From positions 62,001 through 126,000 of the forward strand of contig NZ_JANHOI010000002.1 of assembly GCF_026930205.1 (NCBI RefSeq): a stretch of 64,000 nt of DNA, read 5' to 3'. The notes beneath the pieces were generated by a model that was given only the letters and a program-made list of their open reading frames with translations, ran no database searches and was not told the origin of the DNA. The stretch is from Bartonella sp. 220B. GTDB lineage: Bacteria > Pseudomonadota > Alphaproteobacteria > Rhizobiales > Rhizobiaceae. The position numbers and the translations under genes were made by a program. How positions within the stretch are numbered: position 1 is the first letter of the stretch; every line of letters begins with the position of its first letter. This document shows, in pieces, positions 33,201-62,081 of this stretch.

Positions 33201-33788
33201 ATGAATCGTCCGAGATTTGTTTATTTTATTTGTGCTTGTTTATGTGTGCTGGCTATTATTTGGGGAATTTCTATACTCAGTGATATAATCTATGATAATT
33301 CTCCATCGGTTCAACATCCTCATATAGTTACCAAGAATGACGTATCCAAAGAGAAGCAGCAGGTATCTGAGAGTTCTTTATCACTAAGAGATCGTCTTCA
33401 ACAAGGCAATCTTGAAAATGGGCGTAAAATTTTTCACCAATGTGCTATATGCCATACCTCTGGACGCAATGAATCTGGTCGTGTTGGTCCAGTGCTTTGG
33501 GATATAGTGAACCGTCCTTTGGCGGCGGCACCAAGCTTTGCTTATTCACGAGCATTGCGTGCAAATTCTCATCAAAAATGGGATTTTGTAACTTTAGATC
33601 GTTATATACAATCACCCCGTAAAGCGTTTCCAGGAACCATTATGTCTTTCCGTGGAATAAAAAATGATCAAGATCGTGCCGATCTTTTGCTTTATTTACG
33701 CAGTTTGTCTGATCATCCTGTCCCTTTGCCAATGGATAATAAAGAAAGCGAAAGAGATCAGACTAAAGATAAATTATTTCAAGAATAA
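33201..33788 (+). CDS. membrane-anchored class I cytochrome c
   Basis: A 195-residue cytochrome c of the CycM/c552 type. Residues 8-30 form an uncleaved signal anchor. A polar linker leads to the heme domain with CAICH at residues 81-85 and the probable axial Met148 in GTIMSFRG. ESGRVGPVLWDIVNRP and FAYSRALR are typical of membrane-bound alphaproteobacterial c-type cytochromes that pass electrons to terminal oxidases. A polar 30-residue tail ends the protein. It diverges from kdsB across about 100 bp, a conserved rhizobial neighbour. Confidence 0.9.
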   Translation: MNRPRFVYFICACLCVLAIIWGISILSDIIYDNSPSVQHPHIVTKNDVSKEKQQVSESSLSLRDRLQQGNLENGRKIFHQCAICHTSGRNESGRVGPVLWDIVNRPLAAAPSFAYSRALRANSHQKWDFVTLDRYIQSPRKAFPGTIMSFRGIKNDQDRADLLLYLRSLSDHPVPLPMDNKESERDQTKDKLFQE

Positions 33789-34683
33789 ACTATTTTAGAA
33801 AGAGATGTGATTGTTTTTTAGACTTGCATTTATAATGACAGTTTCAATCTATTTTCGTTGTATAGCAAGATTCACTACATAACATAAAATATGTAGATAT
33901 TTGAGTTTAATACGTTGGTTTATTATTGGCACACGGTGGTTTTCTATTATTAAAGAGTTTTCCATTAGAACTTTAAAATTTATGCAGTTCGTTCTGCTCA
34001 GAAAGCCCTTTTGTTTTCTTGTAATACATTGTTTATAAGCAGTTTTTTTATCAAGAATAAAAGTATATTACCAAAATTTATCCGGTAAAGTAATAGAGGG
34101 AAGGCGTTGAATTTGATACCCATTTAAAATTGTGATAAAGGTTCAGTTTGCATTTTCTCTTTAATTATTGGAATGTAATAAAATATACTTATGAGTGATT
34201 GAATCACAATAATCCAAGCAAGGTTGGAAAATACAAATATCAGGCAAAGCTCTATTGAGAGTTTTGTTTAAAAATAAAATCACTCTCATTTTTATCAAAG
34301 AAAGCAAGTAAAGAGTTGTGTTGTGGGGCATTTGAATTTTGTTGAAGTTAGCCGATTAAGGGTCATAGAAACGAAAGCTCGACAAAAACAGGTTTTATTT
34401 GTCGTTTGCGAATGCAAAAGAGAGTTTTATATGCATTAGGGTGTTTTCTATTTTTTAAGGAACTTTATGCATATTTTTATCAGAAGATACACGCTAGGTC
34501 ATATATAAAGCCTATTGACAATAATAATATGTTGTTTCAGGCTTCTTTCTGTTACATGAGTGATGAATTAATGGAGATATTTAAGTTAAGGGAGCATTAC
34601 GTATCATATAGGCTTTAATTGATAAAAAAGATTCTTTTCTCTAGAATAGCTTTTGAGGGAGATGTTTTATTTAATTTGAATAC
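33789..34683. other. long gene-poor region before the microcin-like locus
   Basis: About 900 bp, AT-rich and full of stops. An open frame at 34406-34618 (70 residues) has no ribosome-binding site or recognisable motif. A short candidate leader ORF at 34467-34508 is listed separately. No RNA gene recognised. The low coding density resembles decaying DNA. Confidence 0.45.
34467..34508 (+). other. short ORF with good ribosome-binding site, possible relic leader peptide
   Basis: AAGGA five bases before an ATG that opens a 13-codon frame (MHIFIRRYTLGHI). Microcin C precursors are tiny ORFs just upstream of mccB, and this is the best-placed short ORF here. It lacks the C-terminal Asn that MccB enzymes adenylate and lies about 180 bp from the mccB start, so it is at most a decayed version. 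Confidence 0.2.
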
Positions 34684-35744
34684 ATGGGAATAATGGAACA
34701 GCAATGTATTTATAAAATACATCTGTTTTCTTATCTGTAAAGGGAACACATTTTTGGTGCCAGTTCAAAGAAGTTTGTTATCAATAAGAAAAAAGACTGG
34801 GGAAATTTTGTACTTCTCGCTGCACAATGGATTGAAAAAAAACGATAGAAGAAGCTCATAATTTGTTATCGCCAATCATGTTAAGAGAAGACTTTAACCG
34901 TTTAGCTTTTTCCCAACCATTTCCTTATGTTAGTAAAAACATCGGACAATATCTTCAATAATCGGTATTCGAGAAATCATTTTCATTATCAAAGTTACGG
35001 TATGAATCCAGAGTCCATTCAACGTATCCTTTTACAAGAAGTAGTAGTCATTTTAGGATGTGGAGGAATTGGTCATCATGTCTCAGCGATATTTGCGTCC
35101 TCTGGTGTGGAAAAATTAATTCTTGTCGACAATGATGTCATCGAGATAACCAATCTTACCAGACAAATTTTTTTACTGAACAAGATGTTGAACTTTCTAA
35201 GACAACTGTTCTCGGGTGTGAGTTGATACAAAGAAACAATCAAAGTGAGGTAAGTGAATTACAAATGTTGATCACTGTGAAAGAAGATATTAACAAACTG
35301 CCTAAAGCCGATTTGTGGATTATTTCTGCTGATGAACCTGAACATCTGGTACCATGGATAAACGAATGGTGTGTAAAAAATAAACAAGCTTATATTAATT
35401 CCAGCTATGTTAATGACATTGCTGTATTTGGACCCTTTTACATACCTGGAAAAACAGGTTGCTATGCATGTAGCTCATTCATAGGTAATCTCCCTGAAAA
35501 AAGCGATGGTTTAATCTATGAGGCTTGCGCTGCTATTAACAATAATTTTAAAGTTGCAACATTTCCTCCTGTGAATGCTCTTTCAGCTGCCATGTGTGCG
35601 AATGATGCTCTTAAATTTCTGGGGGGATATGGTGATCTACTTTCCGCAGATCGCCGCGTGGGGATATGGAGTAGCAAACTCTTTACAGAAGAGCGTTCCT
35701 TAAAAAAGAATCCTCATTGCAAAGTTTGTGGAACAAAGCAATGA
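34684..35744 (+). pseudogene. mccB: microcin C-type adenylyltransferase MccB, frameshifted
   Basis: Reading across frames restores a MccB-length protein of about 350 residues. The N-terminal peptide-binding part is followed by NNRYSRNHFHYQSYG, the ATP loop VVILGCGGIGHHVS, LVDNDVIE, NLTRQIF, YVNDIAVFGPFYIPGKTG, and the zinc Cys pairs CYAC and CKVC at the C-terminus. From memory these align closely with Escherichia coli MccB, more so than with MoeB or ThiF. Lesions: TAA at 34738, one A lost in the 8-A run 34835-34842, one A gained in the 5-A run 34935-34939, and one T lost in the 7-T run 35168-35174. The stop overlaps the next gene (ATGA). Confidence 0.85.
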
Positions 35745-36991
35745 ATAGACCTCGAACGCTTGCTATAACCTATGGATCTTACCATGCGATACGAATGCTA
35801 ATCGGTGTTTATCACGCCATTTTTCTGATGTCTATGGGGGTCACTCTTTCCCAATTGGCTTTGCTGCAAATCGCCTTTTCGGTAACTGTTTTGCTTCTTG
35901 ATTTTCCTTGTGCTGTTTTAGCTGACAGATATCGACGTAAATATTCAGTCACGGCTGGAGTTTTTATGACGGGAGTGTTTTATCTTCTCTGTCTTCAAGC
36001 TCCCAATATGACAGTGCTCATTGTTGCACAAATCCTCTATGCAGCAGGAATTTGCCTCATTGCCAGTGCCATTGACGGCTGGATTTACCATTCTCTAGGC
36101 AACAGACAAGACCATTTTTCGCATTATGCACATCTCTCTCACCAGATAAACTCTTTTGGTAGCATTATCAGTGGTATGATAGGAATTGCAACGATCTATT
36201 ATTCTGGGCAATATTTTATGGGATATATTATCTCAAGTTTGATGATGGGAATAATTTTTTGTATATTTCTTATTGTTCCTGAAGAAAAAGCATTTGTGGG
36301 GGACGGAACAAAAACAAAGACGATTTTGCAAAATGCTAAGGAAACGCTCTGGATATTTCAAAACACTGTAGGAGGAGCGTGGTTTATTTTGTTGATGTGC
36401 CTGTTTAGCGCTGGCATTCAGGTTATTTATCACTTCTGGCAGCCGATAATACTTTCAGGTGGAAAAATTGACCACCTCAACAGCTCGCAGATGTTAGTAC
36501 TCATGTTCTGCCATATCGGAACCTTCTCGGCTCAATATTTTTCCAATTCACTGATGTCAAAATATCACGTGTTTGATCAAAAATATAAAAACTCTATAAA
36601 GTGTTTCTCGTTTTTTTCTGCCCTTATGTGTATGGCTCTTTATTTTTTTGTCCATAGCAGTCAAATTATTGCGTCAATCATGGCATTTTCATTAATTCAT
36701 GGATTTATTTGTACTGTGCCGATAGGAGCAAAGAGTTTGTTTTTCTCAGAGCTTAACCAAAAACAAACCCAACATATTTCTGGCATTGTTGGTGCTGCAT
36801 CCTTTTGCGGAAGAATATTTTCAATAGCAACATTAAGCGTTATTTCATTTCTCCCTGCAAAAATTGCACCGTCTTATTACCTTTTATTACCAACTTTAAC
36901 TTTTTTCATGTGTGGTTGGGTTACTATCAAGTGGATGTCGCTTTCTGGTAAATCTATTTTGAAAAATATAAAAATGCACTTGAAAAAGTGA
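35741..36991 (+). CDS. mccC: MFS exporter, MccC-like
   Basis: A 416-residue major-facilitator transporter with about twelve membrane segments. The loop after segment two reads LDFPCAVLADRYRRKYS, a normal MFS motif A variant. The start at ATG 35741 (MNRPRTLAITYGSYHA) overlaps the mccB stop as ATGA; the frame from 35717 is only upstream read-through. In Escherichia coli, mccC follows mccB and encodes the pump that exports mature microcin C and gives partial immunity. The frame is intact although the partner is broken. Assignment rests on position and family; substrate inferred. Confidence 0.75.
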   Translation: MNRPRTLAITYGSYHAIRMLIGVYHAIFLMSMGVTLSQLALLQIAFSVTVLLLDFPCAVLADRYRRKYSVTAGVFMTGVFYLLCLQAPNMTVLIVAQILYAAGICLIASAIDGWIYHSLGNRQDHFSHYAHLSHQINSFGSIISGMIGIATIYYSGQYFMGYIISSLMMGIIFCIFLIVPEEKAFVGDGTKTKTILQNAKETLWIFQNTVGGAWFILLMCLFSAGIQVIYHFWQPIILSGGKIDHLNSSQMLVLMFCHIGTFSAQYFSNSLMSKYHVFDQKYKNSIKCFSFFSALMCMALYFFVHSSQIIASIMAFSLIHGFICTVPIGAKSLFFSELNQKQTQHISGIVGAASFCGRIFSIATLSVISFLPAKIAPSYYLLLPTLTFFMCGWVTIKWMSLSGKSILKNIKMHLKK

Positions 36992-37257
36992 TTGTTTCTG
37001 CAGCCTAATAGATTAGAAAAACGATTAAGATGCGTTTTATGCATGAAATAAGATAATCTCTTAACAGAATTTTCTATGTCGTAAATGACTAAATGAAGTG
37101 CATTGTAATCATCTGGAATTCTATACTGCTAAATTTGGGTTTATTGCATTGAAAACAGTTTCTAAGCTTTCTTTTTTGCTTTTACTCAAGAATGGAAAGA
37201 AAAGAATTTTTTCAAAAGAAGTGAGGATAGTAAAAAAGAGGAGATTATTGGTTTATT

Positions 37258-38265
37258 GAAATTTTACATGCAATTGATGGCTTTTTTCCCTGCTATGTTA
37301 TCCATATGTTTCTTCTCGTTGACAGAGATAGCCAATGACTCTCGCTCGCGCAATAATTCTCAAGCTACGCTTTATCTACTTGATGAACCAATATTTTCTC
37401 TTGATATAAGTATGCGGAGAAAAATCATTGATATTTTGTATAAGACATAATAGATAATAAGTTGATTTATAATGATAATTTACATATTTTGCATGTTGAA
37501 TTATCTCCTGAATATTATAAGATTTTCTTATCTTAAATCTTCTCATTTATTTGCACGTCATAAGCAGGGATGTTGTGTGGATAAAAACTTTAAAAAAGTA
37601 AAAATGCCTCTCATGAATGTTTTAATGAAAGAGCTATCGCAACATTGGGGGTTGATAAATAGAATGATAGCGCCGGTTTGCGTCTTCGCAAGTGAAAAGA
37701 GGATGGTACACAATGGCTTATAGCTATACTATCGGATTTCATTGTGAAATGAGTTTGGGTGCTTTAAGAAATGTTTCGTTAAAAAACCGTGAACTGGCAA
37801 CACAATGGTGTTTTGTTTTACGTGAGGGTTGTGATTTCATGAAAGAGTATGACAAACAAAAGCGTGAAAAGACACACAATCTCCATTATCTAAAAGATAT
37901 TGCTATAGATGCTTTGGAAAGCCGTAAAGTTGCATTAAAAGCTGATGATAAAGGTGGGAATTGACTTTCTTTACAACTTCATATCCTCCCTAAATAAGGC
38001 TATTGGTTTGTTTCAGAGATTACGCAAATCGGTATACACAATGTGTTCGTCCTCATTTACATACAAAAGCTACAACAACAGAAATGTTATTTTGTTTATA
38101 AGCCATGATTTGAAAATGATTAAAGGATTGATACATGAAGTGATTGTTAAGTATGGTAAAAAGATGGTTGAGTATGGTTCTGCTAGTTGTATTTTTTGTC
38201 CCCAAACTCTTTACAGGCAAACCTTGGTACCTTTCACATTTGCACTGGAGTCTGATTATTTATAG
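37258..38265 (+). pseudogene. relic of a peptide ABC-transporter ATPase (YejF-like), interrupted
   Basis: Fragments of one ATPase survive in mixed frames. From 37299, YPYVSSR, stop, QR, stop, PMTLARAIIL matches the usual YPHEFSGGQRQRIALARAL signature region. After a one-base shift comes LLDEPIFSLDISMRRKIIDILYKT (Walker B and D-loop). From about 38062 the reading resumes with NVILFISHDLKMIKGLIHEV (H-loop), then CPQTLYRQTLVPFTFALES, resembling YejF/DppF C-termini. About 600 bp with an unrelated ORF separates the halves, and the upstream Walker A part is lost. YejABEF imports microcin C in enteric bacteria, so the neighbour may be relevant. Specific assignment to YejF is tentative. Confidence 0.65.
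37692..37964 (+). CDS. hypothetical protein inside the ABC-ATPase relic
   Basis: An open frame of 90 codons from GTG 37692, or 83 from ATG 37713 (MAYSYTIGFHCEMSLG), which has AAGAGG about 10 bases upstream. The product is charged and helical-looking (MKEYDKQKREKTHNLHYLKDIAI), with no signal peptide or membrane segment. I do not recognise the family. It interrupts the ABC ATPase relic, so it may have arrived with an inserted segment; no flanking repeats were found. It may be a real small gene or a remnant. Confidence 0.4.
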   Translation: MKRGWYTMAYSYTIGFHCEMSLGALRNVSLKNRELATQWCFVLREGCDFMKEYDKQKREKTHNLHYLKDIAIDALESRKVALKADDKGGN

Positions 38266-38999
38266 GTAAAGACACTAAATTGTGCTGACAATCCATTATA
38301 AAGAAGAACTTTTCCTACTAATGGTTCACCAATATTTGTGATAAGTTTAATGACTTCCATGGCTTGGAGTGTTCCGATGACCCCTGGTATAATACCAACA
38401 ATTCCGTTTTCAGCACATGTTGGGAGAGTTCCTGGAGCTGGTGGATTGGGAAAGAGATCTCGATAGTGAGGATTATTGTCTTTATATGGCATGAGCACTG
38501 TCACTGAACCATTGAAACGCTCTACAGCACCACTTATTAAAGGTTTTTCACATTGGGCAGCATGATCAGCAAGCAGGTAGCGTGTGGCAAAGTTATCACT
38601 GCCGTCAACAATGATATCGTAGGCATTTAACAGTTTATCCACATTACTTTTATCTAAGCGTAGATTGTGTTTTTCAACCACAACATGGGGATTTATTTCT
38701 TTTAAAGTGGTTTTTGCACTCTCAGTTTTTTTTTGGTTAACCATGTTTGTTTTGTGTATCACTTGGCGTTGTAAATTGGAAAGTGAAACGATATCGTCAT
38801 CGACAATACCAAGTGTACCAACGCCGGCAGCAGCCAAATAGATGAGAACAGGAGCACCAAGTCCTCCGGCTCCAACAACAAGAATGCGTGCAGCTTTCAG
38901 TTTTTTCTGCCCCGCACCACCAATTTCGGGCATAATAATGTGACGTGCATAGCGTTCGATTTCCTCATGGCTTAATTTTGTATTTGCTTCTTGTATCAT
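38256..38999 (-). CDS. MoeB/ThiF/HesA-family adenylyltransferase
   Basis: An E1-like enzyme of 247 residues that adenylates the C-terminus of a ubiquitin-fold sulfur carrier (MoaD or ThiS). It has [17 protein letters not shown], the ATP loop [28 protein letters not shown] with catalytic Arg, and [12 protein letters not shown]. The C-terminal zinc Cys pairs of many MoeB proteins are missing. Without a visible moaD or thiS nearby, I cannot choose between molybdopterin and thiamin. It is convergent with the ABC relic, overlapping by 10 bases. Confidence 0.88.
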
Positions 39000-61968: not shown

Positions 61969-62081
61969 AAAAGCGTAAGAAAAGAGGTGCTCAAAAAGCA
62001 GACTCGGATGAAAAGAACAGCTATGACCAGAGAGTTCTGATATTTTTAGAGATGCGCTGCTATTAAGATGATGCATTGTTT

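Follow-up and report, generated by a model that had tools for sequence, protein, structure and literature searches.

How does an intact gene for a microcin C-type export pump come to stand between a broken synthetase gene and scraps of a peptide importer? The question is raised by a locus of Bartonella sp. 220B on contig NZ_JANHOI010000002.1, within the 64,000-nucleotide stretch at positions 62,001 to 126,000 that we call the window, and whose own numbering is used below. Here a cytochrome c gene (cytC) and a moeB-like gene flank the remains of an mccA-mccB-mccC operon and of the importer gene yejF. On the whole evidence, the best explanation is probably that a three-gene microcin C-type operon replaced the importer operon yejBEF, and that production has died while mccC survives. 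Decay of mcc in Bartonella has been published before: the available parts of two papers report microcin operons in the genus, inactivated in B. henselae and B. quintana (PMC10949449, citing Bantysh 2014 and Severinov 2007), and include mccB proteins in a genome comparison (PMC3910550). An initial model reading of the window's letters, hereafter the first-pass annotation, had mentioned predicted mcc-like clusters in a Bartonella species, which agrees with this literature; it named no description of a decayed form with an importer relic, and decay as such is described there. The operons of PMC10949449 are of the same genus and kind, and the excerpts of that paper mention neither displacement of yej nor retention of mccC; no statement of either was found in the portion of the Bartonella microcin literature covered.

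We compared the broken gene with proteins in the PDB. Its open reading frame (ORF) piece at 34927-35226 matched MccB at an E-value of 5e-26, with ThiF as the best non-MccB match (2.4e-6), and the piece at 35223-35744 matched MccB at 4e-53, the others being LynD (0.009), TruD (0.02) and MoeB (0.1). The N-terminal part was recognisable upstream to about 34687 in two frames, each with stops, and alignment revealed two CxxC pairs in the C-terminal part common to the window protein and E. coli MccB. The gene is broken, and its pieces favour MccB by a wide margin; the window's own genome gave no second MccB match at E 0.001. Searches covered 71 Bartonella genomes, 61 of which were examined at the site and the other ten by whole-genome search alone. 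An intact mccB was present in 7 of the 61, and the MccB of B. washoeensis was 46% identical to the E. coli plasmid protein. Downstream, the ATG of mccC (35741-35743) overlaps the mccB stop codon (35742-35744), and the intact ORF encodes a 416-residue exporter of the major facilitator superfamily (MFS), 43% identical over 96% of its length to the E. coli plasmid pump. The plasmid matches listed for it were E. coli and Salmonella pumps adjoining a ThiF-family gene. The first-pass annotation had proposed exactly this pair, a gene with MccB signatures followed by an MFS exporter in the mccB-mccC order with an ATGA overlap, and had named affinity to MoeB/ThiF or to unrelated exporters as grounds for giving it up; neither affinity was observed.

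PMC6495379 characterises the precursor peptide MccA as ending in Asn, having seven residues in most cases and following a strong Shine-Dalgarno sequence. Scanning for seven-codon frames that start with MDH, or nearly so, and end with Asn, we found an MDHxxxN heptapeptide in 10 of the 61 genomes, usually accompanied by a Shine-Dalgarno-like stretch. Where relatives have a long mccB frame, this ORF lies immediately upstream, as MDHRGFN in B. vinsonii berkhoffii, MDHIGFN in B. washoeensis and strain DB5-6, MDHLECN in B. queenslandensis and MDHIFCN in strain ML69XJBT. The short, Asn-ending gene upstream of mccB is thus present in relatives, and the window holds only a relic of it without a start codon. 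This relic precedes position 34684, at which the first-pass annotation had begun the locus; its mccB, mccC and YejF parts were confirmed within that extent, and its starting point was not. As judged from the genes, production in the window genome is dead, since mccA lacks a start and mccB is broken, and mccC survives. Elsewhere in the genus, some mccA frames have lost the terminal Asn: they have eight codons in G023 (L128), G021 (L109) and G031 (L057), and the last residue is altered in G024 (L126) and G039 (L125).

Other Bartonella carry an intact yejB-yejE-yejF between cytC and moeB, and in two bee-type genomes examined a YejA-like gene is also present there; we take 'bee-type' to denote deep-branching Bartonella genomes. 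When two Bartonella yej operons were run against NCBIfam, YejB scored above its cut-off, and YejE and YejF were first hits below theirs; the two intact YejF proteins gave 744-769 bits to their first hit, NF011713, with a curated cut-off of 834. For the window, the first NCBIfam hit of 37945-38262 was YejF (6.4e-7, far under the family cut-off), and DNA matches to intact Bartonella yejF were confined to about 37297-37437 and 38086-38262. Synteny and these DNA matches mark the relic as that of the YejF-type double ATPase of the yej locus. In genomes G050 and G070 the yejF remnant starts at the same point of yejF, about 300 bases past mccC, and the window aligns with G070 across the junction between mccC and the remnant; together these observations point to one replacement event. 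The scar of genome G064 is of another kind and retains the first part of yejB, and in G033 yej has decayed in place, so that more than one loss of yej took place. No remnants of yejB or yejE, bar weak matches inside mccC (best E 0.002), were found in the nine mcc intervals tested of the 13 at the cytC-moeB site. The comparisons identify the YejF-like remains as the 3'-terminal part of the yejBEF operon native to the genus, evidently displaced by an mcc cassette between cytC and moeB.

The distribution of the two systems was then examined across the genus. Traces of mcc were present in 37 of the 61 genomes, 13 of them at the cytC-moeB site (site 1), 27 at a second site (site 2) and three at both; whole-genome searches of the ten further genomes gave no mcc match. 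The first-pass annotation had suggested looking in the same interval of other Bartonella for an intact cluster, and cytC-mccABC-moeB with all three genes intact is indeed present in G001, G050 and G070. Intact yejE and yejF were found in 23 of the 61 genomes, only four of which carry mcc (G011, G023, G024 and G039), and yejEF was lost in the remaining 38, of which 33 carry mcc. The yejBEF genes are absent from each of the five genomes (G001, G032, G050, G064 and G070) in which mccB and mccC are intact and mccA ends in Asn. A species tree was built from four genes beside the locus (54 rows, 12 open forks; G002, G003, G014, G019, G031, G056 and G063 were dropped for missing genes). All rows with mcc traces fell into one clade of 40 rows (100/100), and yejEF is kept in 13 of the 14 rows outside that clade versus 5 of the 40 inside it. 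Shared ancestry explains much of the association between mcc and yej loss.

The nearest clusters found outside Bartonella are those of Brenneria salicis and Pantoea brenneri (L038 and L039), 72% and 71% identical to the window MccB fragment labelled piece b. GC contents of their mccBC are 39.5 and 42.9%, against 51.1 and 48.3% around. Across the order, one of 397 genomes, the window's own, matched MccB at E 1e-30, three of the genomes listed being Bartonella. Since the nearest homologues lie in Brenneria and Pantoea and a single genome of the order matched, the mcc operon was probably gained horizontally. Both of these clusters carry two further genes downstream, presumably mccD and mccE, and no yej relic was recognised; Brenneria mccD and mccE had no match at the Bartonella loci tested. 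The two also have an identical mccA product, MDHSMNN, though their MccC proteins clearly differ. Compared with the E. coli microcin C operon (mccABCDE plus mccF, on MccC7-type plasmids), the window has the same mccB-mccC order; it differs in that its copy is dead save for mccC and occupies the importer's place.

The pump gene has outlived the synthetase gene in many lines. Among the 37 mcc-bearing genomes, mccB is broken or gone in 30, and mccC is intact in 15 of these; where mccB is intact, so is mccC in six of seven. The genus thus offers a natural experiment, with the synthetase broken in 30 of 37 genomes and the pump intact in 21. The mccB relics of G051, G054, G055, G066, G067 and G068 have a common set of frame-shifting indels, part of which is found in G017, G020 and G025, with a large deletion also common to G017 and G025. 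Seven of these nine lesion-sharing genomes keep mccC intact (the exceptions are G055 and G020). Omega, the ratio dN/dS of nonsynonymous to synonymous change, was 0.06-0.13 for mccC in all 21 pairs of the seven, and neutral evolution was rejected in every one (p at most 6e-10; the pairs are not independent). In the same genomes the mean distance was 0.157 in the mccB relic; in mccC it was 0.028 for first and second codon positions together and 0.176 for third positions. The low mccC dN/dS seen among these other Bartonella lines with a common dead mccB suggests, on a simple reading, that mccC remained useful after mccB died, and mccC is likely a retained pump or immunity gene. Orphan bacteriocin immunity genes, as far as the sources consulted describe them, are likewise protective genes kept after the weapon was lost; here the gene is the MFS pump of a peptide-nucleotide system, and its protection is putative.

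In the scheme that we propose, an mcc operon would have replaced yejBEF between cytC and moeB in an ancestor, leaving just the 3' end of yejF. MccB would attach a nucleotide by an N-P bond to the C-terminal Asn of MccA (MDHxxxN), and MccC would export the conjugate. An E. coli strain lacking any one of its four yej genes withstands microcin C (PMC10924461). With YejBEF, the likely entry gate, gone, a producer would be protected from re-uptake. The gene identities, the displacement of yejBEF, the decay of mccA and mccB, the intact mccC and its low dN/dS in other lines with a common dead mccB are read directly from the sequences; the chemistry, an antibacterial activity and immunity through importer loss plus MccC are inferred from them. 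Searches for S66 (PF02016, MccF-like) and S51 (PF03575, MccG-like) peptidases found none in 71 genomes, with matches in 6 of 14 and 10 of 14 control genomes, respectively; MccE2 acetyltransferase and MccH histidine-triad hydrolase were not searched. Such self-immunity peptidases are not required of minimal three-gene operons, according to the part of PMC9239234 that was accessible. Bartonella may thus hold another, testable answer to self-immunity, with two enzyme families unmatched and the importer lost, at site 1 from the very position that the operon occupies. We suggest tentatively, and regard as rather unlikely in its full form, that self-poisoning was solved by swapping the importer for the weapon at one site, that the weapon decayed many times, and that selection kept MccC as an exporter in its own right, either protective or newly recruited. 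If true, MccC would be a surviving sign of past warfare between Bartonella.

Several observations weigh against this scheme. Since microcin C producers among E. coli retain yejABEF, production does not require loss of the importer, and here both the product and its activity are predicted from genes alone. Genome G023 has intact yejBEF together with intact mccB and mccC, though its mccA no longer ends in Asn. The pump gene is broken in 16 of the 37 mcc-bearing genomes, in G009 beside an intact mccB, and in one of the 21 pairs, G017-G025, mccC is more divergent than the relic. In the window itself, mccB piece b still looks constrained, which argues that mccB died recently and that an intact mccC is not by itself proof of separate selection in this genome. 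Site-1 mcc is found in G018 while its sister G011 keeps yejE and yejF (yejB is broken), a difference that needs recombination or a second event. The gene trees add further conflict. In the mccB tree, the copies from site 2 group as a clade (100/99), with one copy of G018 inside it and one outside; the mccC tree lacks a clean split between the two sites. In the latter, the second copies of G018, G050 and G052 fall among site-2 copies and the site-1 copy of G031 joins their main group; the site-2 copies found in G036, G064 and G065 branch elsewhere, and G013 has no assigned place. The same tree pairs G032, whose mccB is intact, with G068 (100/98) among lines in which mccB is dead, and the position of G051 differs between the mccB and mccC trees. 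These two conflicts show that operon parts were swapped by recombination, and some of the constraint on mccC may accordingly stem from donors with living operons. The window lies beside G027 and G022 in the species tree and its mccC groups with G009, which indicates that recombination has moved the region.

These observations lend weight to another account, in which importer loss and mcc gain were unrelated: genome reduction removed yej, the operon landed by chance, and mccC lasted by chance or through recombination with living operons. We hold this to be a real possibility, though one that falls short of probable. Five of the 61 genomes have lost yej and bear no mcc trace (G007, G019, G030, G035 and G053), an independent-pairs test relating yej loss to mcc presence could use three pairs and had no power, and the disagreement of gene trees with the species tree, with intact-mccB G032 among dead lines, indicates active recombination. 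Unrelated events fit less well with the near-complete retention of yejEF outside the mcc clade and its rarity inside, and with constraint on mccC in every pair of lines with a common dead mccB. It is also conceivable, if somewhat unlikely in our judgement, that MccC was recruited to export something else and that its link to microcin C is gone. Fifteen genomes have an intact mccC while lacking both intact mccB and yejEF, and without yejEF immunity to imported microcin C would hardly be needed, which counts in favour of recruitment.

That the mcc operon and the importer relic form one decayed production-plus-uptake cluster is very improbable. The two are adjacent in the window, and the first-pass annotation had joined them; its YejF-like ATPase remains were confirmed by NCBIfam and DNA matches, and their membership in the mcc cluster was not, since they are a remnant of the genus's own operon. 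We rejected the importer relic as a part of the mcc operon because 18 of the 61 genomes carry an intact yejBEF between cytC and moeB and no mcc there; site-2 mcc loci have no match to the yejF relic, and inspection by eye of the sequence retrieved around the Brenneria and Pantoea clusters (the Pantoea piece is 7.6 kb) revealed no yej-like ORF. An ordinary MoeB/ThiF pseudogene, as the ThiF-fold family and the adjoining moeB gene might suggest, is practically out of the question, because neither piece has MoeB or ThiF as its best match (E 4e-53 to MccB versus 0.1 to MoeB) and intact relatives have mccA upstream and mccC downstream of the gene.

The replacement of yejBEF preferred here bears on peptidoglycan recycling as well, YejBEF-YepA being the muropeptide importer described for the order. 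In the available text of PMC9790009, this importer takes up muropeptides in Agrobacterium, is described for Rhizobiales, and has its YepA reported in B. henselae, the only Bartonella so noted. It consists of the same YejB, YejE and YejF with a separately encoded binding protein, and the window retains 3' yejF scraps only. The non-bee-type genomes with an intact yejE, 19 in all, are also the ones that carry a putative YepA encoded elsewhere, and putative fragments of it occur in G007 and G018; the window genome gave no match to a YepA-type binding protein at E 1e-20. Bartonella genomes outside those 19 and the bee-type ones may lack this import route.

Table 1. Features of the cytC-moeB interval in the window.
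Feature	Position	Strand	Basis
Cytochrome c gene, left anchor	33201..33788	+	Pfam Cytochrom_C 1.6e-7
Stretch between cytC and mccA	33789..34598	.	common to other site-1 loci
mccA relic, frame of heptapeptide length with terminal Asn and stop, start codon lost	34599..34622	+	alignment to relatives
mccB pseudogene (ThiF-like peptide nucleotidyltransferase)	34687..35744	+	stops and frame changes, near-full length recognisable
mccC, intact 416-aa MFS exporter, ATGA overlap with mccB	35741..36991	+	intact ORF, homology
yejF relic, part of second ATPase domain	37297..37437	+	tblastn and blastn to L088/L084
Insertion within yejF relic, degenerate copy of a dispersed phage-integrase fragment	37462..38082	+	repeat matches, Pfam in better-kept copies
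yejF relic, 3' end	38086..38262	+	66% over 56 codons, E 2e-15; YejF first NCBIfam hit
moeB-like gene, right anchor	38256..38999	-	NCBIfam MoeB 3e-101

The features of the interval are listed in Table 1. The left anchor, cytC, had a match in all 71 genomes. Site-2 loci match just the final part of the stretch between cytC and mccA, about 50 bases of the window and about 90-135 in the site-1 relatives compared. An Rfam search of 33700-38300 gave no match up to E 0.1. The stretch at about 37462-38082 inside the importer relic is a degenerate phage-integrase fragment and not importer sequence. Six of eight other copies of this repeat contain an ORF of 218-284 codons, and two of these six, better kept, have Pfam integrase arm-binding and central domains; no inverted repeats of at least 14 bases were found in the window insertion or in two other copies. 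Matches to the repeat of about 620 bases occur in 43 of the 71 genomes, with at least eight in 32 of these.

Outside the window, several Bartonella have a different locus in which a ThiF protein adjoins an MFS pump (L147:2348-5386, L146:2387-4719, L148, L149 and L150). MccB was the closest PDB match of the L147 ThiF protein (1.5e-24, versus 3e-17 for MoeB), and an AAA ATPase precedes the locus in L147, L148 and L150; this is possibly another peptide-modifying system. In G036, an MFS pump adjoins an ORF that fuses an MccB-like ThiF C-terminal half to a methyltransferase (L145:2303-5082, minus strand), and the two may be the relic of a cluster of the carboxymethyl-nucleotide type.

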